Shown: positions 50,555 through 62,240 of the stretch, piece after piece
Numbering within the stretch: position 1 is the first letter of the stretch
Layout of the letters: every line of letters begins with the position of its first letter
Assembly (NCBI RefSeq): GCF_014203715.1
Contig: NZ_JACHJP010000001.1
Coordinates: 1,466,432 to 1,530,431, forward strand
Reading direction: 5' to 3'
Length of the DNA stretch: 64,000 nucleotides
From: Streptosporangium saharense
Lineage (GTDB): Bacteria; Actinomycetota; Actinomycetes; Streptosporangiales; Streptosporangiaceae
Translations under genes and position numbers: made by a program
Notes under the pieces: generated by a model
Told to the model about the DNA's origin: nothing
Database searches by the model: none
Seen by the model: only the letters and a program-made list of their open reading frames with translations

Positions 50555-51892
50555 TCAGCGTCCCCGGCTGAGCGATTCGACAGCCCACCTGGCCGCGGCC
50601 AGGGCGTTGCGCGTGATCTCCTCGTCGGGTGGGCCCCCGGAGTTCTGGTACTGGACGGTCAGGAGCAGGTTGTTGACCCGGACGATCACGGTCACCGAGT
50701 AGCTGCCCCCGGTGACCTCGCCGACGACGGCCTCGTTGCCCAGTCCACTGACCGGCCGCAGGGGGGTCTGCGGGCTTCCGTACTTGTTCGTCCGGTGCTT
50801 GGCGGTGTAGGCCACGCTGCCGGCCAGTGACTCGGACGCCTTGTCCGCCGAAGGGAACAGCCGCTCCTCGACGGAGAGCTGGCGCTGGAGGCTGCGGGGG
50901 TCTTTCGAGTTCGCCGTGCCCCAGTGGGGTTCCTCGCCGGTGCCGCTCGGGACGGTCTTCACGCCCAGTTGGTTGAGCTGCTCGGCGGTGAAGAGCCCCC
51001 TGAGGTCAGGCTTCGTGGTGAAGGGCCCGGGGTCCACGTACGGCGCCGCCTCGACGGCGGGCGTGGAGGAGCGGGACACGCCCCAGACCACCCCTCCCGC
51101 GACCGCGAGCACGCAGGCCGCGATCGCCGCGACGACGAGCGGAGACCTGAGCCGGGACCTCGGGGGCTTGGGGGAGACCTGTTCGAGCGCGAGCCGGACC
51201 GAGGTCGCGTCCGGCCGCCGCGCGGGATCGTCCGCCAGCAGGCCCTCGACGATCGGCGCCAGCACCCCGGACCTCGTGGTCATCCCGCCGGTGAACTCGG
51301 AAGGGTCGGTGAGCGGCGAGCCGTCGGCCATCCTGGGGACGGTCTGCGACCCGGTGGTCGGCGCCCTGCCCTCCATGGCGGTGAACAGGGTGGTGCCCAG
51401 GTCCCGCAGCTCGTCGGTCCCCGAGAGACTCAGGATGCCGGTCAGCACGACCCGGCCGTCCGAGGTGAGCACCACGGTGTCGGGGGTCGCGGCCAGGTTG
51501 ACGCCCCGCTCGTGCGCGGCGTTCAGCGCGTCCAGCACCCGCAGGCCCACCTCGGCCGCCCGTTCCTGGGGGAGCGGACCCTCGTGCCTGACGATCTGGA
51601 CCAGCGAACGGCCCGTCACCGCCTCCGCGACCAGCCACATCCGGTCGGGGGCCGAGATCACGTCGTGCAGGGTGGTGACGCCCGGATGCCTGAGGTCGGC
51701 CGCCGCACGGATCTGCCCCAGCAGCCGGTCACGGCCGGGGCCGGGAGGCGGCAGCCGTACCTCGGCGATCGTGACCTCCCTGCCGAGCAGCTCGTCGCGG
51801 GCGCGCCACGAGGTGCCGGTGTGGTCACGGCGTTCGAGCAGCCGGTAACGCCCGGCCAGCAGACCCGGGTCGGGGGACGGCACGTCAGTCAC
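50555..51892 (-). CDS. Membrane pseudokinase, fourth of the kinase operon
   Basis: 445 residues, GTG start overlapping the preceding kinase by 8 bp. The kinase-like part (~1-235) keeps the fold but loses every catalytic motif. The Gly loop is RRDHTGTSW, the VAIK lysine is Ala43 (VTIAEV), HRD is missing in GVNLAATPD, and DFG is GIL (152-154). A transmembrane helix follows (~250-270), then an extracytoplasmic domain related to those of the three upstream genes (ending VTVIVRVNNLLLTVQY). Unlike them it has no C-x-W cysteine: the paired cysteines are replaced. I predict it cannot phosphorylate and may instead bind or regulate the active kinases. Confidence 0.9.
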   Translation of the reverse strand: MTDVPSPDPGLLAGRYRLLERRDHTGTSWRARDELLGREVTIAEVRLPPPGPGRDRLLGQIRAAADLRHPGVTTLHDVISAPDRMWLVAEAVTGRSLVQIVRHEGPLPQERAAEVGLRVLDALNAAHERGVNLAATPDTVVLTSDGRVVLTGILSLSGTDELRDLGTTLFTAMEGRAPTTGSQTVPRMADGSPLTDPSEFTGGMTTRSGVLAPIVEGLLADDPARRPDATSVRLALEQVSPKPPRSRLRSPLVVAAIAACVLAVAGGVVWGVSRSSTPAVEAAPYVDPGPFTTKPDLRGLFTAEQLNQLGVKTVPSGTGEEPHWGTANSKDPRSLQRQLSVEERLFPSADKASESLAGSVAYTAKHRTNKYGSPQTPLRPVSGLGNEAVVGEVTGGSYSVTVIVRVNNLLLTVQYQNSGGPPDEEITRNALAAARWAVESLSRGR

Positions 51893-53393
51893 GGCTGTTC
51901 AGCTCCTCGGCGACGAGCCTGGCGGCGCGCAGACCCCTGGCGCGCAACTCGGGGCTCACCTTCTTCGCCTTCTCCGACAGGTTGACCTCGACCAGCAGGT
52001 TGCTGATCCGGAAGCGGACCACCGTGTGCGCCCGGTCGAGGGCGCCGACGTCGTAGGTGAACGCCTCGGCGCCGACCCGGCTCACGTCGCGCAGCGGGCC
52101 GACCCAGCCGACAGGCGAGGTCCCCTCGTCCGCCTTGATCTTGGCCCGTTCCGAGGAGAAGAACGCGTGGGCGACCTCCGGCGCCGGTTTGCCGGACACC
52201 GGGGTCTTGCGGCTGAACTGCACCCTGAGCGAGGGATCGCTTCCGGCGTCGCTCCAGGCGCAGTACGCCTCGTCGTCCCCCTTCGCCTCCACGGAGAGCG
52301 GCGCGGAGGTCGGTCCGAGCGCGTGGACCTGGGCCTCACCGAGCAGCGAACACGGGTCGGGATCGGCCGCGAACCGCCCCACGCTCGTCCCCGAGGGGGA
52401 GGGCGAGGGTGACGGCGCCGCGGTTCCTCCAGTGGTCAGCAGCACGGCCGCGGTGACCCCGGCCGCCACGACCGCGACCCCGCCGCCGACGAGCCATCCG
52501 GTACGGCCCCGCCCCACCCGGGGGGTTCCCGTGGGCTCGGTGACCGGCTCGGCGGAGGGCGCCAACGGCCCCGGCGGCAACCCCTGCGCCACCCGCTGCA
52601 ACGCCGTACGGAGCACCGCCTCACCGGGCCGCAACCGAGGATCCTTCTCCAGTACGGCCAGCAGCACGGGAGCCAGGTCCCCCGCGTGGGCGGGGAACGG
52701 GGTCGGCTCGGTCAGCACCGCGCCCAGCGTCGCCACCGGGACACCCCGCTGGAACGGCCCCCGCCCCTCCACGGCGGCGTAGAGCGTGGCGCCAAGAGAC
52801 CACAGGTCGGCGGCCGGGCCGTCCCCGCCGCGCAGCCGCTCCGGGGCGATGTAGCCGGGGGAGCCGACCAGCGAGTCCGCCGAGGTCAGTTGGGCGTCCC
52901 CCTCGACCGTCGCGATGCCGAAGTCGGTCAGCAACACCCCGCCGTCGTCGGCGAGCATGATGTTGGCCGGTTTCACGTCGCGGTGCATGATGCCCCTGCC
53001 GTGCGCCAGGGCCAGCGCGTCGAGCACCGCGACGCCGATCGCGGCCACCCGCCGGGGCGGCAACGGCCCCTCCGCGCGGATGACCCGGTCGAGGGAACGG
53101 CCCCTGACGAGGTCCATCACGATCCAGGGGCGCCCCTCCTGGGCGATGACGTCGTGCACCGCCACGATGGACGGGTGACTCAGCCGGGCCGCCGCCCGCG
53201 CCTCGCGGAGGGTGCGCTCACGCGCCTCCGTCCGCTCGGCCTCGGTCAGGTTCCTGCCGAGCAGCACCTCCTTGATCGCCACCTCGCGGTGCAGAAGCTC
53301 GTCCCTGGCCCGCCAGACCACGCCCATCCCGCCCGCGCCGAGCCGGTCGATCGCCCGGTAACGGCCCGCGAGCACGGGTGCCGGGTCAGCCAT
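51885..53393 (-). CDS. Membrane Ser/Thr protein kinase, third of the kinase operon
   Basis: 502 residues, ATG start overlapping the upstream gene by 8 bp. Intact kinase: GAGGMGVVW, VAIKEV, HRDVKPANI, TDFGIA and GYIAPERLRG. One transmembrane helix (~302-322), then an extracytoplasmic sensor-like domain with the pattern DPCSLLGEAQV and a second cysteine in YCAWSD, which I infer form a disulfide as in DUF3558-like lipoprotein domains. It ends with VVRFRISNLLVEVNL. Probably senses a wall or envelope signal and phosphorylates cytoplasmic substrates. Confidence 0.95.
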   Translation of the reverse strand: MADPAPVLAGRYRAIDRLGAGGMGVVWRARDELLHREVAIKEVLLGRNLTEAERTEARERTLREARAAARLSHPSIVAVHDVIAQEGRPWIVMDLVRGRSLDRVIRAEGPLPPRRVAAIGVAVLDALALAHGRGIMHRDVKPANIMLADDGGVLLTDFGIATVEGDAQLTSADSLVGSPGYIAPERLRGGDGPAADLWSLGATLYAAVEGRGPFQRGVPVATLGAVLTEPTPFPAHAGDLAPVLLAVLEKDPRLRPGEAVLRTALQRVAQGLPPGPLAPSAEPVTEPTGTPRVGRGRTGWLVGGGVAVVAAGVTAAVLLTTGGTAAPSPSPSPSGTSVGRFAADPDPCSLLGEAQVHALGPTSAPLSVEAKGDDEAYCAWSDAGSDPSLRVQFSRKTPVSGKPAPEVAHAFFSSERAKIKADEGTSPVGWVGPLRDVSRVGAEAFTYDVGALDRAHTVVRFRISNLLVEVNLSEKAKKVSPELRARGLRAARLVAEELNSRD

Positions 53394-55047
53394 TGGTCTT
53401 CAGGGAGGTGGTGAGCCAGCGGGCGACCTTCTCCGCCCCCGCCGCGATCTGGCCGTCCGCGTCGTCCTTGACACCGCCCCGGCCGTACTCGACCTCCGCG
53501 ATCAGGTTGCTGACCCGGAGGACCACGGTGACCTTGTAGGCCCCGCCGTACAGGTTGAACTTGCTGTAGGAACCGGTGGTGAAGGCCTCCTCGCCGACGC
53601 CCTTCAGGTCCTTCGGGGGCGTGGGTTTGGGGTCGGAGGTGCTCGTCGCGACGTCCTGCCTCTTGCCCGCGAGGTACTGCTTGGCACGCGTCACGCCGGA
53701 GGCGTCCTGCTTCTGGGCGACCAGCCGTACGGTGAGGTCGAACTTCTCGGTGCTCGGCTTGCGCCAGTCCTGCTGGTTGAGCCAGTCGCAGGTGGTGGCC
53801 TCGACCTCGGAGCTGCGGAAACCGGGCACGACCTCGGCGACCTGCTTGTCGTCGAGCAGACCGCACGCCCTGGGCGCCGAGGCGAACAGGGCACCTCCCG
53901 GCCCTGGGACGCGGGCGTCGGCCTCCTCGGTGGGAGCCCCGAGCCGCTGGGAGAGCAGGACGCCGATGGTGACCGCCATGGCCAGCAGCAGCCCACCGGT
54001 CAATCCCACGATCGGGCGGGGGACGAGCACGCCCGATCGTGGGGTTGGCGTGGCCGGACGCGTGGGGCTCTCCTGGACGGGGACCAGCTCTTGTGAGACG
54101 GGCTGTTGGGGTTGCTGCGGTGGTTGGGGTTTCTGGGCCTGGTTCGGGAAGGGGGAGGTGGGGACGGCCTCCTCGGACGCGGGGGGTGGCTCCTGGGCGG
54201 GTACGGCCTCGTCCTGGGGGCCCGCGGGCGGGACCGGCCCCACTGGGCTCATCGGCTCCACCGGCTGTGGCGGTCCCACCGGCCCTGTCGGCCCCATCGG
54301 CTGTGGTGGTCCCATCGGCTGTGGCGGCCCCGAGCTGAACGGGTCCGAGCTGAACGGGCCGGAGGTGAACGGCCCCGAGGTGAACGCGACCGAGGAGAGA
54401 GGATCGGAGGAGAACGGGTCCGAGGGGAACGAGGAAGCCGGGGGGACCTGCGGAAGATCCGTGGGGAAGGGCGCGGAGGCCGCCCAGGTGGACGGCGGCG
54501 GCGCCACGTCCGCGCGGACCGGCGGCAGCGGGGTGTGGCCGCCGTTGCGCGACAGGTCGAGCAGGGTGTTGCGCAGCACCCCCGGCTCGGGCCGCTGGGC
54601 CGGGTCACCGGAAAGCAGGGCGAACAGTGCCGAACCCAGCGCCCCCGCGTTGTCCAGGGACCCACCGGGTGAGGGCGGACGTCCCTCGACGGCGGTGTAG
54701 AGGGTCGCGCCGAGCGACCACAGGTCGGCTGCGGGCCCCGTCACCCCCTCGGGGGCGGTGAACGCCGGGGAACGCAGGGTGGGCGCGGCGAGGGTGATCC
54801 GGTCGTGGGGACCGACCAGCACCGAGCCAGGCCGTACGTCACCGTGGAGCATCCCCCGGTTGTGCACGGCCACGAGCTGATCCAGCACGGCCAGGCCGAC
54901 GGTCGCGGCCTGCTGCGGGGTCAACGGCCCGAGCCGCTCGACCACCTGCTCCAGGGAGGTCTGTTCGAGCACCGCGGACCCGGGCACGTCCACCGCGTGC
55001 CTCCCCGAACGCCTACCCTGCGAGCCCGGGACGTCTGGACGGTTCAT
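53386..55047 (-). CDS. Membrane pseudokinase lacking the kinase N-lobe, second of the kinase operon
   Basis: 553 residues. ATG overlaps the upstream kinase stop (ATGA). The kinase-like region (~1-185) begins directly in the C-lobe: no Gly loop, no VAIK lysine and no alphaC. HRDVKPAN is HGDVRPGSV (68-76), and DFG is replaced by AAPT (87-90). The APE and alphaF parts (FTAPEG, DLWSLGATLYTAVEG) remain. A long Pro/Ser/Gly linker (~195-350) includes repeats, then a transmembrane helix (~358-380) and an extracytoplasmic domain with cysteines in RACGLL and TCDWLN. The N-lobe loss is real in the frame given: no upstream coding sequence is available because the preceding gene overlaps. Confidence 0.9.
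   Translation of the reverse strand: MNRPDVPGSQGRRSGRHAVDVPGSAVLEQTSLEQVVERLGPLTPQQAATVGLAVLDQLVAVHNRGMLHGDVRPGSVLVGPHDRITLAAPTLRSPAFTAPEGVTGPAADLWSLGATLYTAVEGRPPSPGGSLDNAGALGSALFALLSGDPAQRPEPGVLRNTLLDLSRNGGHTPLPPVRADVAPPPSTWAASAPFPTDLPQVPPASSFPSDPFSSDPLSSVAFTSGPFTSGPFSSDPFSSGPPQPMGPPQPMGPTGPVGPPQPVEPMSPVGPVPPAGPQDEAVPAQEPPPASEEAVPTSPFPNQAQKPQPPQQPQQPVSQELVPVQESPTRPATPTPRSGVLVPRPIVGLTGGLLLAMAVTIGVLLSQRLGAPTEEADARVPGPGGALFASAPRACGLLDDKQVAEVVPGFRSSEVEATTCDWLNQQDWRKPSTEKFDLTVRLVAQKQDASGVTRAKQYLAGKRQDVATSTSDPKPTPPKDLKGVGEEAFTTGSYSKFNLYGGAYKVTVVLRVSNLIAEVEYGRGGVKDDADGQIAAGAEKVARWLTTSLKTNG
54260..54440 (-). repeat. Repetitive linker-coding DNA in the pseudokinase gene
   Basis: Short in-frame units repeat here: an 18-bp-like unit coding PQPMGP/GPVGPP-like steps and 15-bp-like units coding (F/L)(S/T)S(D/G)P. 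The protein product is a Pro/Ser/Gly-rich linker between the kinase-like part and the membrane. Confidence 0.75.
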
Positions 55048-56600
55048 CCTCTCGCCTTCTGTTTGTTCAGCGTTTGCGCGACCCAGGTCGCCGCGGTGTG
55101 GGCGCCCGTCTGGATCGCGGGGCCGTCCTTGGAGCCGTCGACCACCGTGTAGGAGACGTCGAGGACCAGGTTGTCGACGCGGAGGACCACGTGGCTCTGT
55201 TCGAGCCTGCCGGTCTTCCTGTTCTCGTACAGGTCGTAGCCGAACGCCTCGTCACCGGCGGGCTTGACCGTGAGCGGTCCCGTGGTCCTGGCCGAGCGCG
55301 CGCCCGCCCGGATCTCGGACCAGCTCCACCCGATCTGTCCGCTGGGCAGTGTGGCGTTGCGCTGGTTGACGAGGAGTTCGTGGGCCTGGCGTGGGCTCTT
55401 GCCCCACTGCTTGTCGGATACCGGGACGACCTCAAGGCCGATCCCGGGGCTCGTCCACTGGCAGCCACCCCGGTTCGTCTGCTCGCCCGCGCCTTGCACG
55501 GCGGGCAGGAGCCGTTTGACGTCGGCCGCGGAGACCAGGTCGCACATGTTCAGCGGGACGGTGAAGGCGCCCGGCTTCTCGCTGAGCCTGGGTGACCCCT
55601 GCTGTGCCGTACGGCCGAAGGCGAAGTGGGCGACGCCCGTGGTGGCCGCGATGACCGCGACGACCGCGGTGACCTCGACCGCAGCCCACACGAGGGTACG
55701 TCTGCGGTTCGCCTTCGGGGGCGGGGCGCTCTCCTGCGCGGGTTCGTGGGCAGGGACGACGGCCACCTCGGAGCCTGGGCGGCCGAGGGCGACCTCCTGC
55801 AGGACGCGGGCGGCCTCCTCGAAGGAGGGCCGTTCCCCGGCCTCGGGCGCGAGCATCCGCATGAGGAGAGGACCGAGTCGGCCCGCCCGCTCGGGGGGCC
55901 TGGCGGGGTCGGTCAGCACCCGGCCGATGGCCGCGACGGGGCTCTCCGCCGGGTGCGGGGGCATTCCCTCAACGGCGAAGTAGAGCGTGGCGCCCAGGGA
56001 CCACAGGTCGGAGGCGGGGCCGCCGCGCTCACCGCGCAGGCGCTCGGGGGCGATGTAGTTGGGGGAGCCGACCAGGTGGCCGGTGCGTCCCGCGGTCTCC
56101 TCGCCCTCGACGGCCGCGAAGCCGAAGTCGGTCAGTACGGCCCGGCCCGTGCGGGTGAGGAAGACGTTGCTCGGCTTGACGTCCCGGTGCACGACCCCGG
56201 CGGCGTGGGCGGCGGCGAGCGCGCTGAGGATGCCCACGCCTACCCTGGCCGCCTGGTGGACCGGCAGTGGCTGCCGTCTGAGGACGGTCTCCTCAAGGGA
56301 GGAACCGGACAGCAGTTCCATGACGAGCCAGGGACGCTCGTGCTCGATCACCACGTCGTGGACGGTCACGATCGAGGGGTGCTTGAGGCGGGCGGCCAGG
56401 TTGGCCTCCCTGAGCGCGGAGGCACACGCCTCCTGCCGCCTGACGGGGTCGAGGCCCGGCGGGAGCCGTACCTCCTTGACCGCCACGTCACGGCGGAGCA
56501 TCTCGTCGGCGGCGAGCCAGACCGCTCCCGTCTCGCCCTCGGCGAGGGGATTGAGCAGCCGGTAGCGGCCCGCTAGCACTTGAGTGTCTATCCCGCTCAC
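55044..56600 (-). CDS. Membrane Ser/Thr protein kinase, first of the kinase operon
   Basis: 518 residues from the GTG at 56600; an ATG at 56648 would add 16 residues and is possible. The Gly loop is LAEGETGAVW (first Gly replaced by Ala). Other motifs are intact: VAVKEV, HRDVKPSNV, TDFGFA and NYIAPERLRG. One transmembrane helix (~310-330) is followed by an extracytoplasmic domain with cysteines in NMCDLVSAADV and GGCQWTS and a terminal VVLRVDNLVLDVSY. A TATGTT hexamer near 56627 is a possible -10 favouring the GTG. First gene of the four-gene operon. Confidence 0.93.
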   Translation of the reverse strand: MSGIDTQVLAGRYRLLNPLAEGETGAVWLAADEMLRRDVAVKEVRLPPGLDPVRRQEACASALREANLAARLKHPSIVTVHDVVIEHERPWLVMELLSGSSLEETVLRRQPLPVHQAARVGVGILSALAAAHAAGVVHRDVKPSNVFLTRTGRAVLTDFGFAAVEGEETAGRTGHLVGSPNYIAPERLRGERGGPASDLWSLGATLYFAVEGMPPHPAESPVAAIGRVLTDPARPPERAGRLGPLLMRMLAPEAGERPSFEEAARVLQEVALGRPGSEVAVVPAHEPAQESAPPPKANRRRTLVWAAVEVTAVVAVIAATTGVAHFAFGRTAQQGSPRLSEKPGAFTVPLNMCDLVSAADVKRLLPAVQGAGEQTNRGGCQWTSPGIGLEVVPVSDKQWGKSPRQAHELLVNQRNATLPSGQIGWSWSEIRAGARSARTTGPLTVKPAGDEAFGYDLYENRKTGRLEQSHVVLRVDNLVLDVSYTVVDGSKDGPAIQTGAHTAATWVAQTLNKQKARG

Positions 56601-56700
56601 CCCGTTCGCCGTCCCATCGCGGACAGCAACATAGCCACTTAGCGCCATATGAACCAATGAATGAGGACTTGCTGAAACAAAACGTGGTTACGCATGGGCG

Positions 56701-56727
56701 TTGTCCACAGGCGGAGAGTTATCCACA
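56701..56727. promoter_or_regulatory. Two DnaA boxes
   Basis: TTGTCCACA at 56701-56709 and TTATCCACA at 56719-56727 match the bacterial DnaA consensus; the first is the form preferred by Streptomyces DnaA. They are in the same orientation, 18 bp apart start to start. They lie upstream of the kinase operon and the acetyltransferase gene. No dnaA or dnaN is nearby, so this is not the main origin. Confidence 0.75.
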
Positions 56728-56983
56728 GAACGGGATTCGGTGCCGACGGGCGTCGCCGGGCTGGGACATCCTGTCGCCATGGCATCCACGGCAGATCGTC
56801 CGCACCCTGCCCCGAGGGCGTTTTATCCGATTGAGAGTCGGTCCCGAGGGGGTTAGTGTCCGCCTTCCAGATCTTCGAGAGGAAGGAGTGAGATGCGGAT
56901 GTTCACCGACCCGATCACGCGTCCCCGACTTGGGCGGCAGACCGCCTGAGATCCGGGAGGCGCACCGCTTTCTGGAGTTTCAC

Positions 56984-58775: not shown

Positions 58776-61700
58776 TTGAGACCCCTCGACTTCCTCGGCA
58801 GGATCAAGGTCAAGCTCGGCATGGTCATGCTGCTCGCCGTGGCCGCCGCGTTCGTCGCCAACGAGGTCGGCATCAACGCCGGATACTCACGCAACGTCCG
58901 TGTCGCGGTCGCCGTCGCGTTCGCCCTGGTCATGATGCAGTTGCTCGCCCGGGGGATGACCAAGCCGCTGCGTGAGATGGCCGCCGCCGCGCAGACCATC
59001 GCCAAGGGCAGCTACGGCCTGCGCGTCACCGCCACCTCGCGTGACGAGGTCGGCGAACTCGCCCGTGCCTTCAACGCCATGGCCGCCGATCTCGGCGAGG
59101 TCGACCGGCAGCGGCGTGAGCTGGTCGCCAACGTCAGCCACGAGCTGCGCACCCCGATCACCGCGCTGAGGGCGGTCCTGGAGAACGTGGTCGACGGCGT
59201 CTCGACGCCCGACCCCGTCACGCTGGGAACCGCCCTGTCCCAGACGGAACGGCTCGGCAGGCTGGTCGCCCAGCTTCTCGACCTGTCCCGCCTCGACTCC
59301 GGAGCCAGGCCGATCGAGCTTGAGGAGGTCGAGCTTCGCCCGCTGTGCGAGCAGGCGTTGCGCGAGGCCGTGCTCGCGAGGGAGGGCATCACCGCCCGCT
59401 GCGAGGTGCCCACGGGCCTGTGCACCCGTGCCGACGCCGACCTGCTGGCCCAGGTGCTGGCCAACCTGCTGGACAACGCGGTACGGCACAGCCCGGAGGG
59501 CGGGGTCGTGGTGCTCGACGTCGTCCCGCAGGGGACCGGGACGCGGCTGCGTGTGATCGACCAGGGGCCCGGCATCCCGCCGGAGGACCGGGCTCGGGCG
59601 TTCGAGCGCTTCTCCCGGCTGGACGCCGGGCGGGCGGCGGACGTGGGCGGCGCCGGCCTCGGCCTGGCCATCGTCAAGGAGATCGTCGAGCTGCACGGCG
59701 GTTCCATCCGCTTCGAGGACGGCGAGGGCTGTCGTGTCGTGGTCGATCTCCCCGAAAGGAGCATGATGGACGTCCCGTCCCGCTCGTCTCTCAGCCGGGC
59801 GTCGTGCGTCACGGACTCCACGCCGGAGGTTTCCGAGTCCGCGACGTCCCCGGAGAAGGGCGATGACGGTTCCACCGAGGCTGCGGATCCTGTCGAGGGG
59901 GAGTTCGCCAAGGTCGTGTGGCCGATCGAGCGACCGGGAAGCGCCGCGCCGCCTTCCAGGAACGTGGATCTCGCGGGGGCGCCGGATGAGTCCGTGACGT
60001 CAGTCGTGAAGGAGGACGTCGTCCCCACGGTCGAGGGGGAGCCCGCTGAGGAGTCCTCCGGTGCCGCCGGGTTCGCGCGGTATGCCGAGGGGGTCGGGGA
60101 ACGTCCCCGGAGGAGTGAGTTCGGTGCCGGGGAGCCGTCGGTGCCGGGCGGGATGTACCCGCCCAGGCCGGTGCTGAGCGTGCCGAGTCGGTCCCGGTCA
60201 CCCCGCAACTGGGCGGGAGCGTTCGCCGGGCTTCTCAGCGGTGGGATCGCCGGGCTGGTCTGCGGGGTCATCGCGGGGATGATCATCGCCTCGATGAGCC
60301 CGATGCTGGGGGTGCTGGCCGGTTTCCTGATCATGCTGGGCGGCGGGTTCATCGGCACGGTGCTCGGGATCACCGACTCCTACGTCCGAGCCGCGGGGGA
60401 GCCGCCGGAGCGTCCCGCCGTACAGGGGCCGGTGGGAAGCGAATCGTGGGAGGCGCACATGGCCAGGCAGATGGGAACGGGCGGCCCTCTCGGAGGCGCT
60501 TCGGGGAGCGTCTCGGAAGGTCTTGCCGTAGGAGCCGCGGGTTCTACAGGGGGAGCCCCAGAAGGTCTGCCAGGAGGTTCTGTGGAGGGAACCTTGGAAG
60601 GTCAGCCGGGAAGCGTCCCGGTAAGTCCTTCGGGAGGCACCTTGGGGAGTCCCACGGGTGGCGTCCCGGGAAGCCTGCCGAGAGACGTCTCGGGGAGCCC
60701 TCCGGGAGGTGGTCCCTGGAGTGTTTCGGGAGGCAGCCCAGGGAGCGAGTGGGGGGACCCTCCGGGAGGGTATGTGGCTCCGCCGTTGTTCCCCCGGCCC
60801 GACCTGCCCGCCACCCCCCGCTGGCTGCTCGCCGCCTGCGCCGGTGTCGGTCTCGTCGCGGCGCTGGCTCTGCCGTACAGCAGGGCGGGGTTGGGATTCG
60901 TGCTCGTCGCCATCGTCATGGGTGTCGCGGTCCTGCCGGTCGCGCGGCAGCGGATCACGCCGTGGTCGGCCGGGCTGGGGCTGGTCGCGTACGGACTTGT
61001 CACGGTCGCGGTGTTCAGGGACTCCGACGGGCTGGTGGCCTCGCTCCTGCTGACCGGGTTCCTGCTGGGCGCCCTCGCCCTGTCGGGGGCGGGACGCAGT
61101 TGGCTCGGGGTCATCAGGGGCGGCGCCTCGGTGCTGATCGCGCTGCTGCCCGTGCCGTGGTTCCTCGCGGAGCCGGTCAAGGGGGTGCCCCTGCGCAGGC
61201 GGATCGTGCCCGCGCTGGTCGGGGTCGGGCTGAGCCTGGTGCTCGTGCTGCTGTTCGGCGGGCTGTTCGTCTCGGCGGACGCGGTCTTCGCCGACGCCGT
61301 CGAACGAATTCTGCTGACGCAGGACTGGGCGGCGTCGATGCCGGTGCGGATCGTGCTGTTCGTGGCCTTCGCGGTGCTGGTCGCGGCGGCGGTGCTGGTG
61401 GGGCTGCGTCCCGTGGCCGAGCCGACGGTTCCCACGCTGCGGCTCACGGTCGGCCGGGGCCTGTGGGTGCCCCCGCTGGTCGCCCTCAACCTGCTGTTCG
61501 CCGTGTTCGTGGGGATGCAGCTGACGGTGCTGTTCGGCAGCACCCGGTGGGTGGTCTCCGCAGCAGGGCTGACCTACGCCGAGTACGCCAGGTCCGGGTT
61601 CTTCCAACTCGTCGTCGTCAGCGTGTTCGTGCTGGCGATCGTGGCGGCGGCCTCGGTGCTGGTCGATCTCGGGGGGCGCGAGAGGTGGCTGATGGCCGGG

Positions 61701-62240
61701 CTGCTCGGCCTGCTCTGCGCGCTGACCATGGTGATCCTGGCCTCCGCGCTGCACCGGCTCGACCTCTATGTCGACGCCTACGGCTTCTCCCGGCTGCGCG
61801 CCTCGGTCGAGGCGGCGATCTGGTGGCTGGGTGCCGTCTTCGTGCTGGTCCTGGTCGCGGGGGCGGTACGGCTCACCCGGCGTGGCCGTGCGGCGTGGCT
61901 GCCCAGGGCGATGGTCATGATGACCGGGATCGCGCTGCTGGCGTTCGCCGCGTGGAACCCCGACCTGCGGGTCGCCGAGAGTCAGGCCGCCGTCCGGGGT
62001 GTCGAACGGCTCGACCGGGTCTACCTGGGCGACCTCGGGGCTGAGGCCGTACCCGCGCTCGACCGGTTGCCCGAGCCGATGCGTAGCTGTGTGCTGCGGG
62101 ACGTGGTCGCCGCCAACCAGCTCGCGACCCCCGACCCGTGGAACGGGTGGAACCTCGCCCGTCAGCGGGCCAGGGACCTGTTGGCCGAGCATCCGGTGCT
62201 CTCCGGCCCCGAGTGCGTGAACCGGGGGCCGTACAACTGA
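58776..62240 (+). CDS. Histidine kinase fused to a DUF4153-type polytopic membrane domain
   Basis: 1,154 residues in one uninterrupted frame. TTG start; no better start is visible. One or two N-terminal helices, HAMP (~55-110), HisKA with H122 in NVSHELRTPITALR, HATPase with N-box DNAVRH, G1 DQGPGIP and G2 GAGLGLAIV, ending near 330. Then an acidic, Ser/Pro-rich linker, two helices (~478-535), a Gly/Ser-rich low-complexity stretch (~565-670), and a C-terminal domain (~680-1110) of about ten helices with the DUF4153/4173 signature LTYAEYARSGFFQL. The two domains are commonly separate genes next to each other. Pairs with the OmpR regulator. Confidence 0.88.
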   Translation: MRPLDFLGRIKVKLGMVMLLAVAAAFVANEVGINAGYSRNVRVAVAVAFALVMMQLLARGMTKPLREMAAAAQTIAKGSYGLRVTATSRDEVGELARAFNAMAADLGEVDRQRRELVANVSHELRTPITALRAVLENVVDGVSTPDPVTLGTALSQTERLGRLVAQLLDLSRLDSGARPIELEEVELRPLCEQALREAVLAREGITARCEVPTGLCTRADADLLAQVLANLLDNAVRHSPEGGVVVLDVVPQGTGTRLRVIDQGPGIPPEDRARAFERFSRLDAGRAADVGGAGLGLAIVKEIVELHGGSIRFEDGEGCRVVVDLPERSMMDVPSRSSLSRASCVTDSTPEVSESATSPEKGDDGSTEAADPVEGEFAKVVWPIERPGSAAPPSRNVDLAGAPDESVTSVVKEDVVPTVEGEPAEESSGAAGFARYAEGVGERPRRSEFGAGEPSVPGGMYPPRPVLSVPSRSRSPRNWAGAFAGLLSGGIAGLVCGVIAGMIIASMSPMLGVLAGFLIMLGGGFIGTVLGITDSYVRAAGEPPERPAVQGPVGSESWEAHMARQMGTGGPLGGASGSVSEGLAVGAAGSTGGAPEGLPGGSVEGTLEGQPGSVPVSPSGGTLGSPTGGVPGSLPRDVSGSPPGGGPWSVSGGSPGSEWGDPPGGYVAPPLFPRPDLPATPRWLLAACAGVGLVAALALPYSRAGLGFVLVAIVMGVAVLPVARQRITPWSAGLGLVAYGLVTVAVFRDSDGLVASLLLTGFLLGALALSGAGRSWLGVIRGGASVLIALLPVPWFLAEPVKGVPLRRRIVPALVGVGLSLVLVLLFGGLFVSADAVFADAVERILLTQDWAASMPVRIVLFVAFAVLVAAAVLVGLRPVAEPTVPTLRLTVGRGLWVPPLVALNLLFAVFVGMQLTVLFGSTRWVVSAAGLTYAEYARSGFFQLVVVSVFVLAIVAAASVLVDLGGRERWLMAGLLGLLCALTMVILASALHRLDLYVDAYGFSRLRASVEAAIWWLGAVFVLVLVAGAVRLTRRGRAAWLPRAMVMMTGIALLAFAAWNPDLRVAESQAAVRGVERLDRVYLGDLGAEAVPALDRLPEPMRSCVLRDVVAANQLATPDPWNGWNLARQRARDLLAEHPVLSGPECVNRGPYN
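60480..60775 (+). repeat. Low-complexity Gly/Ser/Pro-coding repeats in the fused kinase gene
   Basis: Degenerate units of about 15-24 bp, such as GGGAGCGT-like steps coding SGS, GGS and PGS, link the two halves of the fused kinase. Length and unit number are likely to vary between strains. Confidence 0.6.

Follow-up and report, generated by a model that had tools for sequence, protein, structure and literature searches.

Two kinases alternate with two pseudokinases in a conserved actinomycete operon: a candidate composite receptor with an apparently exchanged sensor

Introduction

Why should a bacterium maintain, in one operon, two membrane Ser/Thr kinases together with two paralogues whose catalytic motifs are gone? 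The question is raised by four adjoining genes, here called A, B, C and D, in a 64,000-nucleotide stretch of the Streptosporangium saharense genome (assembly GCF_014203715.1, contig NZ_JACHJP010000001.1, positions 1,466,432 to 1,530,431). We call this whole stretch the window, and the coordinates below are those of the window. Since 48 kinase-domain matches were found genome-wide, kinases are common in this organism, and it is the layout of the four genes rather than the presence of kinases that is unusual. The explanation that we favor, tentatively and with rather less than even confidence, is that the operon encodes a hetero-oligomeric membrane receptor kinase in which D would serve as an exchangeable sensor and as an N-lobe partner.

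Results

All four genes lie on the minus strand, and according to the list of open reading frames (ORFs) of the window, the A/B, B/C and C/D overlaps are 4, 8 and 8 bp. The original prediction, made from the DNA letters, had described this array, with A and C as motif-complete kinases, B as lacking the N-lobe and DFG, D as lacking the lysine, HRD and DFG, and each protein as continuing into a transmembrane helix and an ectodomain with a VVxRxxNLxxxV tail. The ORF coordinates and our motif reading agree with all of this and also with the distribution of a C...C-x-W pair, which is present in A, B and C and absent from D. The features, with protein lengths in amino acids (aa), are as follows.

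55044..56600, minus strand: gene A, membrane Ser/Thr kinase, 518 aa from GTG 56600 (ORF, Pfam, motifs)
55812..56561, minus strand: kinase domain of A, Pfam residues 33-282 of the 537-aa ORF (Pfam)
55641..55697, minus strand: transmembrane segment of A (hydropathy)
55047..55640, minus strand: ectodomain of A, PknH-sensor-like and DUF3558-like (ectodomain and profile comparison)
53386..55047, minus strand: gene B, pseudokinase, 553 aa, without N-lobe (ORF, Pfam, motifs)
54544..54960, minus strand: C-lobe of B, residues 30-168, HGD Asp kept, no DFG, shortened activation segment (AlphaFold2, Foldseek)
54019..54540, minus strand: proline-rich linker of B, length highly variable among genomes (sequence, AlphaFold2 model)
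53941..54018, minus strand: transmembrane helix of B, model helix 344-369 (hydropathy, model)
53389..53973, minus strand: ectodomain of B (sequence and profile comparison)
51885..53393, minus strand: gene C, membrane Ser/Thr kinase, 502 aa, invariantly intact kinase (motifs in 24/24 copies)
52599..53360, minus strand: kinase domain of C, end approximate (Pfam)
52437..52493, minus strand: transmembrane segment of C (hydropathy)
51888..52436, minus strand: ectodomain of C, model with a predicted local distance difference test (pLDDT) score of 92.1, best fold match the PknH sensor 4esq (model)
50555..51892, minus strand: gene D, pseudokinase, 445 aa, N-lobe kept; Lys, HRD, DFG and most of the activation segment lost (ORF, Pfam, motifs)
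51188..51859, minus strand: pseudokinase domain of D, approximate; residues aligned to PknB R10, L33 and D76 kept (alignment)
51083..51139, minus strand: transmembrane segment of D, near the recombination breakpoint of relatives (hydropathy, DNA identity)
50558..51082, minus strand: ectodomain of D, allele class I (with L031, L032 and L049), no Cys pair (trees, sequence)

The longest ORF of gene A is 55044-56657 (537 aa, from TTG 56657); the start adopted here is GTG 56600. The Gly loop, Lys, HRD, DFG and APE are all present in A and C of the window, with Pfam kinase scores of 144.3 and 150.0 bits, and these two alone both exceed the PF00069 cut-off and carry Lys, HRD and DFG. B scores 30.8 bits, covering profile positions 80-199 only, and D scores 33.5 bits. 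B starts at the end of the N-lobe and has no DFG; its catalytic loop, HGDVRPGSV, retains the Asp, a point that the original prediction left unmentioned. D reads EVTIAEV at the Lys strand, NLAATPDTV at HRD and TGI at DFG, lacks the helix-C Glu as well and is missing most of the activation segment. The lobe of B is predicted to fold without an N-lobe (AlphaFold2 pLDDT of 77-95 by ten-residue blocks over residues 30-168), and the best Foldseek matches to this model are PknB. PknB also comes first for D when PDB sequences are ranked; MviN is not among the best 60 of 496 PDB matches for D, which carries no weight.

The layout is not a peculiarity of one strain. A search with B of 149 genomes, including the window's own, gave strong matches in 24 others; the loci of these were read, and a family sample of 200 genomes added six more. 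Because the resulting 30 loci (labeled L here, and genomes G) were chosen by their B match, they give no frequency. A, B, C and D stand in this order in 27 of the 30, and 26 of these 27 have one or more of the genes for SURF1, gamma-glutamyltransferase, GNAT, a response regulator or a histidine kinase alongside; none was seen in the stretch of L043. The carriers among the matches listed include at least Streptosporangium, Planobispora, Planomonospora, Spongiactinospora, Microtetraspora and Rhizohabitans, and in Streptosporangium a D match at an expectation value (E) of <=5.7e-103 was found in 14 of 16 genomes, the window's included. In the family sample, B matches at E<=1e-22 occur in 34 of 200 genomes (counting the window's own and eight of genus g4) and in 12 of 68 genera; the stretches read around four weaker matches (G071, G034, G016 and G053; E of 2.6e-22 to 2.8e-19) held no cassette. 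Of the 23 other loci that have C, 20 contain a start codon that would reproduce the 8-bp overlap of B and C, and 18 of 24 loci (19 with an alternative start in L053) have the 4-bp overlap of A and B, so that the recurrence of both order and overlaps in other genera goes beyond chance. Conservation is weaker for the C/D overlap, which is 8 bp in 7/21.

The loss of catalytic motifs is equally widespread. The N-lobe and DFG are absent from 25/25 copies of B, most of which keep the catalytic-loop Asp, and among 22 copies of D the Lys is found in one, the HRD Asp in none and the DFG Asp in one; the beta-3 Lys position holds S in 10, T in 6, A in 5 and K in 1. Catalytic residues are thus lost in all or nearly all orthologues, and by their motifs B and D are predicted to be catalytically dead, in agreement with the pseudokinase status first proposed for them. 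The D of L053, from Rhizohabitans, is transitional, with Lys and DFG present and HRG in place of HRD, which indicates that D descends from an active kinase. Lys, HRD and DFG are kept in 24/24 copies of C. All three catalytic residues (Lys/Asp/Asp) are retained in 22/25 copies of A, the damaged ones being L047 (Lys to Arg, HRG; G029, a locus that also lacks C and D), L049 (Lys to Arg) and L046 (DFG to GFG); further changes are HHD in L043 and replacements of the catalytic-loop Lys in L035 and L040.

The dead domains of B and D are under purifying selection. Simple counting estimates of the ratio of nonsynonymous to synonymous substitution rates (dN/dS) in seven close pairs (six for the kinase part of D) were 0.17-0.36 for the lobe of B and 0.18-0.45 for the kinase part of D, next to 0.10-0.31 for the kinase of C and 0-0.37 for that of A. 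The linker of B gave 0.43-0.84, and the ectodomains are less constrained (0.18-1.74, the top value coming from few changes). Residues aligned to R10, L33 and D76 of PknB are kept in 22, 21 and 22 of the 22 D copies; we take R10 to be a PknB interface residue and the residues to correspond one to one. L33 and D76 are the sites altered in PknB structures titled L33D and D76A, and L750 and D793 of MviN are described as analogous dimer contacts in passages of a review of pseudokinases (PMC12599244).

The extracytoplasmic domains were originally predicted to be related, and the profile-profile comparison agrees: all four are homologous, with hhalign probabilities of 99.4-99.9%. The family has one nearly invariant Cys pair, C29/C59. 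Among the 21 D copies with a computed ectodomain (L049 left out), only the window and L032 lack it, and the absence from D is thus specific to these strains. The ectodomain model of C matches the overall fold of the PknH sensor 4esq. At the sequence level, the sensor profile found no match in PDB sequences at E<=10, and the 52 sensor members together matched 12 Pfam families (E<=1), none of them a PknH family; PF12079 (DUF3558) matched 48 of the 52 at that threshold, with 31.2 bits for C of the window against a cut-off of 34.1.

The ectodomain of D stands apart in its history. Across genus pairs, the identities of kinase part and ectodomain correlate at 0.66 for A, 0.71 for B and 0.80 for C and at only 0.26 for D. 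L035 and L040 share 94% identity in the kinase part of D and 29% in the ectodomain; the corresponding values are 91 and 28% for L032/L036, 83 and 27% for L031/L038 and 83 and 32% for window/L034. In L035/L040, the DNA is 87-98% identical as far as the membrane helix extends, 33-57% identical across the sensor and again 82-97% identical past the stop codon. In the other three pairs identity drops close to the helix and stays low to the end of the 900 bp compared, where the downstream genes differ. A reference tree was built from the kinase domains of A and C in 18 of the 28 D-bearing loci, the ten whose kinase domain the pattern did not cut being dropped. The log-likelihood penalty against it was 464 for the D sensor, 24, 34 and 55 for the A, B and C sensors and 23 for the kinase part of D. 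All five partitions conflict with the reference in the approximately unbiased (AU) test at p<0.05, so that conflict is mild everywhere and of another order for the D sensor. The 13 D sequences of the genus fall into class I (window, L031 and L032; split support 88), class II (L034 and L035; 99) and class III (the eight others, the most diverse), and L049, from another genus, joins class I with a support of 89. Misassembly is unlikely since the chimeric D genes come from separate assemblies, one of them a single contig (L031). As judged from these comparisons, close relatives have exchanged the ectodomain of D, and the breakpoint lies close to the membrane helix. The original prediction had missed this exchange, the erosion of the active site of A in some lineages and the existence of lineages that keep only A and B.

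A co-exchanged ligand gene 3' of D was considered and rejected: the gap between D and SURF1 in the window holds small ORFs, none recognized as a candidate ligand, two of which (65 and 103 aa) have conserved counterparts in relatives. Other genomes have inserts in this gap; in L031, as read from the translations, they encode an HxlR-like regulator and a class A beta-lactamase-like protein. An insert of about 900 bp downstream of D is common to L031, L034, L035, L039, L040 and L043, and because these genomes carry different classes of D sensor, the 3' end of D is a site of gene gain.

In most of the Nonomuraea loci read, A and B are fused. All 54 genomes searched of the genus match a fused protein of this type with E no weaker than 8.2e-51, other kinases matching at the 1e-33 level, and three genomes named Nonomuraea match as well, one in parts only. 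We read 23 loci, each from a different genome. In 22 of them the gene has SURF1 and the response regulator as flanking genes, and in L196 the response regulator alone was seen. A single polypeptide joins an A-type domain to a B-type C-lobe in 20 of the 23, and the other 3 have the A-type domain only. The linker between the halves ranges from nearly absent to about 1,000 residues. In a tree of C-lobes, one half falls with A (0.906) and the other with B (0.924), both as monophyletic groups. No sensor was seen in the 23 loci and no convincing membrane helix in the proteins, the top 19-residue hydropathy being 1.84, inside the kinase domain of L207. The DFG Asp is lost in 23/23, the HRD Asp in 21/23 and the Lys is replaced by Arg in 20/23, so the A-B pair persists although both domains lack catalytic motifs; the A-type domain, with no C or D alongside, keeps L33 in 2/23. 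When neighboring genes fuse, association of the separate proteins is classically suspected, and the A-B fusion suggests that A and B work together and fits a physical pairing of the two. The longer linkers of L196, L197, L175, L201, L198 and L199 contain a short basic amphipathic stretch (found by eye, with a pattern match in L196 and L197 only), which may be a membrane-binding helix in place of the lost transmembrane one.

The original prediction derived the four genes from duplications that made two kinase/pseudokinase pairs. Among constrained ectodomain topologies, AC|BD, as duplication of a pair would give, is the best (AU p of 0.87) and AD|BC is rejected (0.042), but AB|CD is not rejected (0.162) and is the topology of the free tree, with a support of 79 (unrooted splits). 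The kinase tree recovers A and C as separate monophyletic groups (100 for each) and places both in a clade (100) with nine other kinases of the genome, where the closest relative of A has a support of only 45 (unrooted splits).

The locus is flanked by SURF1, a gamma-glutamyltransferase, a GNAT-like gene, a response regulator and a histidine kinase, all on the opposite strand, and no function was drawn from them; Pfam gave no functional lead for eight neighboring ORFs. One row remains to be added to the feature list:

56601..56900, strand not assigned: probable divergent upstream region between A and the GNAT-like gene (inference)

The 417-aa GNAT-like ORF overlaps this region; most of its orthologues have about 310-316 aa. 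The histidine kinase ORF (58776-62240, plus strand, 1154 aa) has a long hydrophobic region after the kinase core, and in many genomes among those read it and its response regulator flank the operon. Two Streptomyces-like loci were also read (L232 and L233), and there the sensor sits on neighboring proteins without a kinase domain. A second operon type (L228, L229, L230, L231 and L235), with a total of at least four sensors, has two kinases adjoining a kinase-less protein with two sensor domains; L235 has two such double-sensor ORFs. A 421-aa membrane protein of genus g4 (G018, L227:8919-10184) has the sensor and only a small remnant of a kinase C-lobe and lies beside an intact kinase; it is possibly another birth of a dead partner. 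The window's genome itself has a kinase beside a sub-threshold kinase-like match (G000:C1:369235-371322), possibly a further kinase/pseudokinase pair.

Discussion

The tentative reading of the operon as one receptor can be put as follows. One receptor kinase would be formed by four related subunits that each cross the membrane once and carry an extracellular PknH-like sensor, with C as the main catalytic subunit and A as a second kinase whose activity may be expendable in some lineages. B would be a C-lobe-only platform pairing with the kinase domain of A. D would be a noncatalytic partner whose N-lobe, with the PknB-type back-to-back positions, could hold C (or A) active, and its sensor would be the variable, exchangeable input of the complex. 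A signal at one or more sensors would alter the pairing of the cytoplasmic domains and thereby the activity of C. The gene order, the pattern of loss, the homology of the sensors, purifying selection, the A-B fusion and the chimeric D genes are observed and the folds are predictions, while co-assembly, the pairing partners, allostery and ligand binding are what we infer. A more specific version, which we consider somewhat unlikely, is that D is a polymorphic sensor whose fixed, dead cytoplasmic half docks on a kinase of the operon while the outer half is traded between species, giving one kinase complex different specificities for a type of ligand or for recognition of kind; Nonomuraea would then have discarded the catalytic and sensing halves and kept the A-B pair as a cytosolic scaffold.

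Several observations weigh against such a complex. No B match at E<=1e-22 was found in 166 of the 200 family genomes. D is absent in G015, a remnant in G003 and missing with C in G029, where only A and B are left, and D is therefore dispensable. Contact between A and the lobe of B cannot be universal since B has also lost its C-lobe in L049 and L051 and is a protein of just 265 aa in L101/L182. Other kinases of the genome likewise keep the residues aligned to R10, L33 and D76 (15/15, 13/15 and 13/15), so that in D they may reflect an inherited fold rather than a contact. The pattern of exchange is absent from the A and B sensors, and because these do not swap, the sensors may not share one ligand.

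It is unlikely, if a serious alternative, that the genes encode four separate receptors on one transcript, with the sensors acting alone or as homodimers and the pseudokinases serving as scaffolds or as substrates that recruit FHA-type proteins. There is a precedent in the dead kinase of MviN, whose C-terminal tail is phosphorylated by PknB and recruits FhaA, according to passages of the review (PMC12599244), and the long variable proline-rich linker of B and the occurrence of single-gene losses would fit; the conserved order and overlaps, the shared private sensor family and the A-B fusion are harder to reconcile with independent receptors. The exchange of the D sensor could also have been driven by a hostile agent (a phage, predator, toxin or competitor) that uses the ectodomain, or by a role as a marker of kind rather than in nutrient or wall sensing, with the kinase part being secondary. 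At least three allele classes among 13 D copies, the grouping of class I with another genus, and a breakpoint at the membrane helix with recovery of identity past the stop codon in L035/L040, with no such exchange in the A and B sensors, are what such pressure might leave behind. We nevertheless find it improbable: no ligand, attacker or co-exchanged partner gene was found, the genes seen downstream of D are accessory, and the dead kinase domain stays under purifying selection.

The two remaining explanations concern B and D. Some bacterial pseudokinases, SidJ and SelO, are known from passages of the same review to catalyze by unusual routes (PMC12599244), and B keeps its catalytic-loop Asp in most copies, but a lobe without an N-lobe in B and the loss of Lys, helix-C Glu, HRD and DFG in D make nucleotide binding or unusual catalysis very improbable. 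That they are functionless decaying duplicates we regard as hardly credible. D is absent or a remnant in 3 of 24 loci, the lobe of B is gone in some and the D of L053 (Rhizohabitans; Lys, DFG, HRG) is intermediate, as decay would predict; however, dN/dS is well below 1 for the kinase part of D (six pairs) and the lobe of B (seven pairs), reading frames are intact across genera, and a pseudokinase product is still encoded at 23/23 of the Nonomuraea loci read.

Bacterial pseudokinases are described as largely unexplored by experiment in passages of the review, which mention operons with one pseudokinase gene each and contain neither a receptor array of kinases and pseudokinases nor a family that lacks the N-lobe (PMC12599244). 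In the titles and beginnings of abstracts of the open-licence literature, we found no description of the four-gene layout, nothing linking pseudokinases with Streptosporangium or Nonomuraea and nothing relevant on DUF3558. The parts are of known kinds, while their combination and the exchange of the sensor of a dead kinase appear to be new. The locus brings several natural experiments together: intact kinases stand next to dead paralogues, one pseudokinase has only the C-lobe of a kinase domain, one copy is transitional, some lineages lack the catalytic motifs and keep the A-B pair, and one receptor changes its sensor but not its dead kinase domain. This makes it testable whether a dead bacterial kinase can be the interchangeable input of a receptor.

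Comparison with known systems

The idea that a dead receptor subunit acts as the allosteric partner of an active paralogue is familiar from ErbB3/HER3; here the proteins are bacterial Ser/Thr kinases, and the pairing is a proposed one. A and C resemble PknB-type receptor kinases, matching the PASTA-kinase model NF033483 across the kinase domain, but with 208.4 and 225.5 bits, far under the cut-off of 450, they are not members of the PASTA family. The sensors are predicted, from the model of C, to share the fold of the PknH sensor of Mycobacterium tuberculosis, 4esq being the top match; PknH has two disulfides in its sensor, whereas the operon sensors have one conserved Cys pair, and the operon instead has four paralogues, two of them dead. 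DUF3558 proteins resemble the sensors to the extent of the PF12079 matches at E<=1, with C of the window just under the cut-off; here the domain sits on kinase and pseudokinase receptors. As far as passages of PMC12599244 describe the bacterial groups, only D shows the features of ActPs3, which are not exclusive to that group; Arg for the beta-3 Lys with long insertions, as in ActPs2, is not seen in D, and Pfam found in neither B nor D a PQQ-type domain after the kinase domain, which is common, not universal, in ActPs1. D resembles MviN (Rv3910) and ActPs3 in the degraded motifs, the shortened activation segment, the C-terminal membrane helix and the N-lobe contact positions, and it differs from them in that it is not part of MviN, adjoins its own kinases and carries a private sensor.

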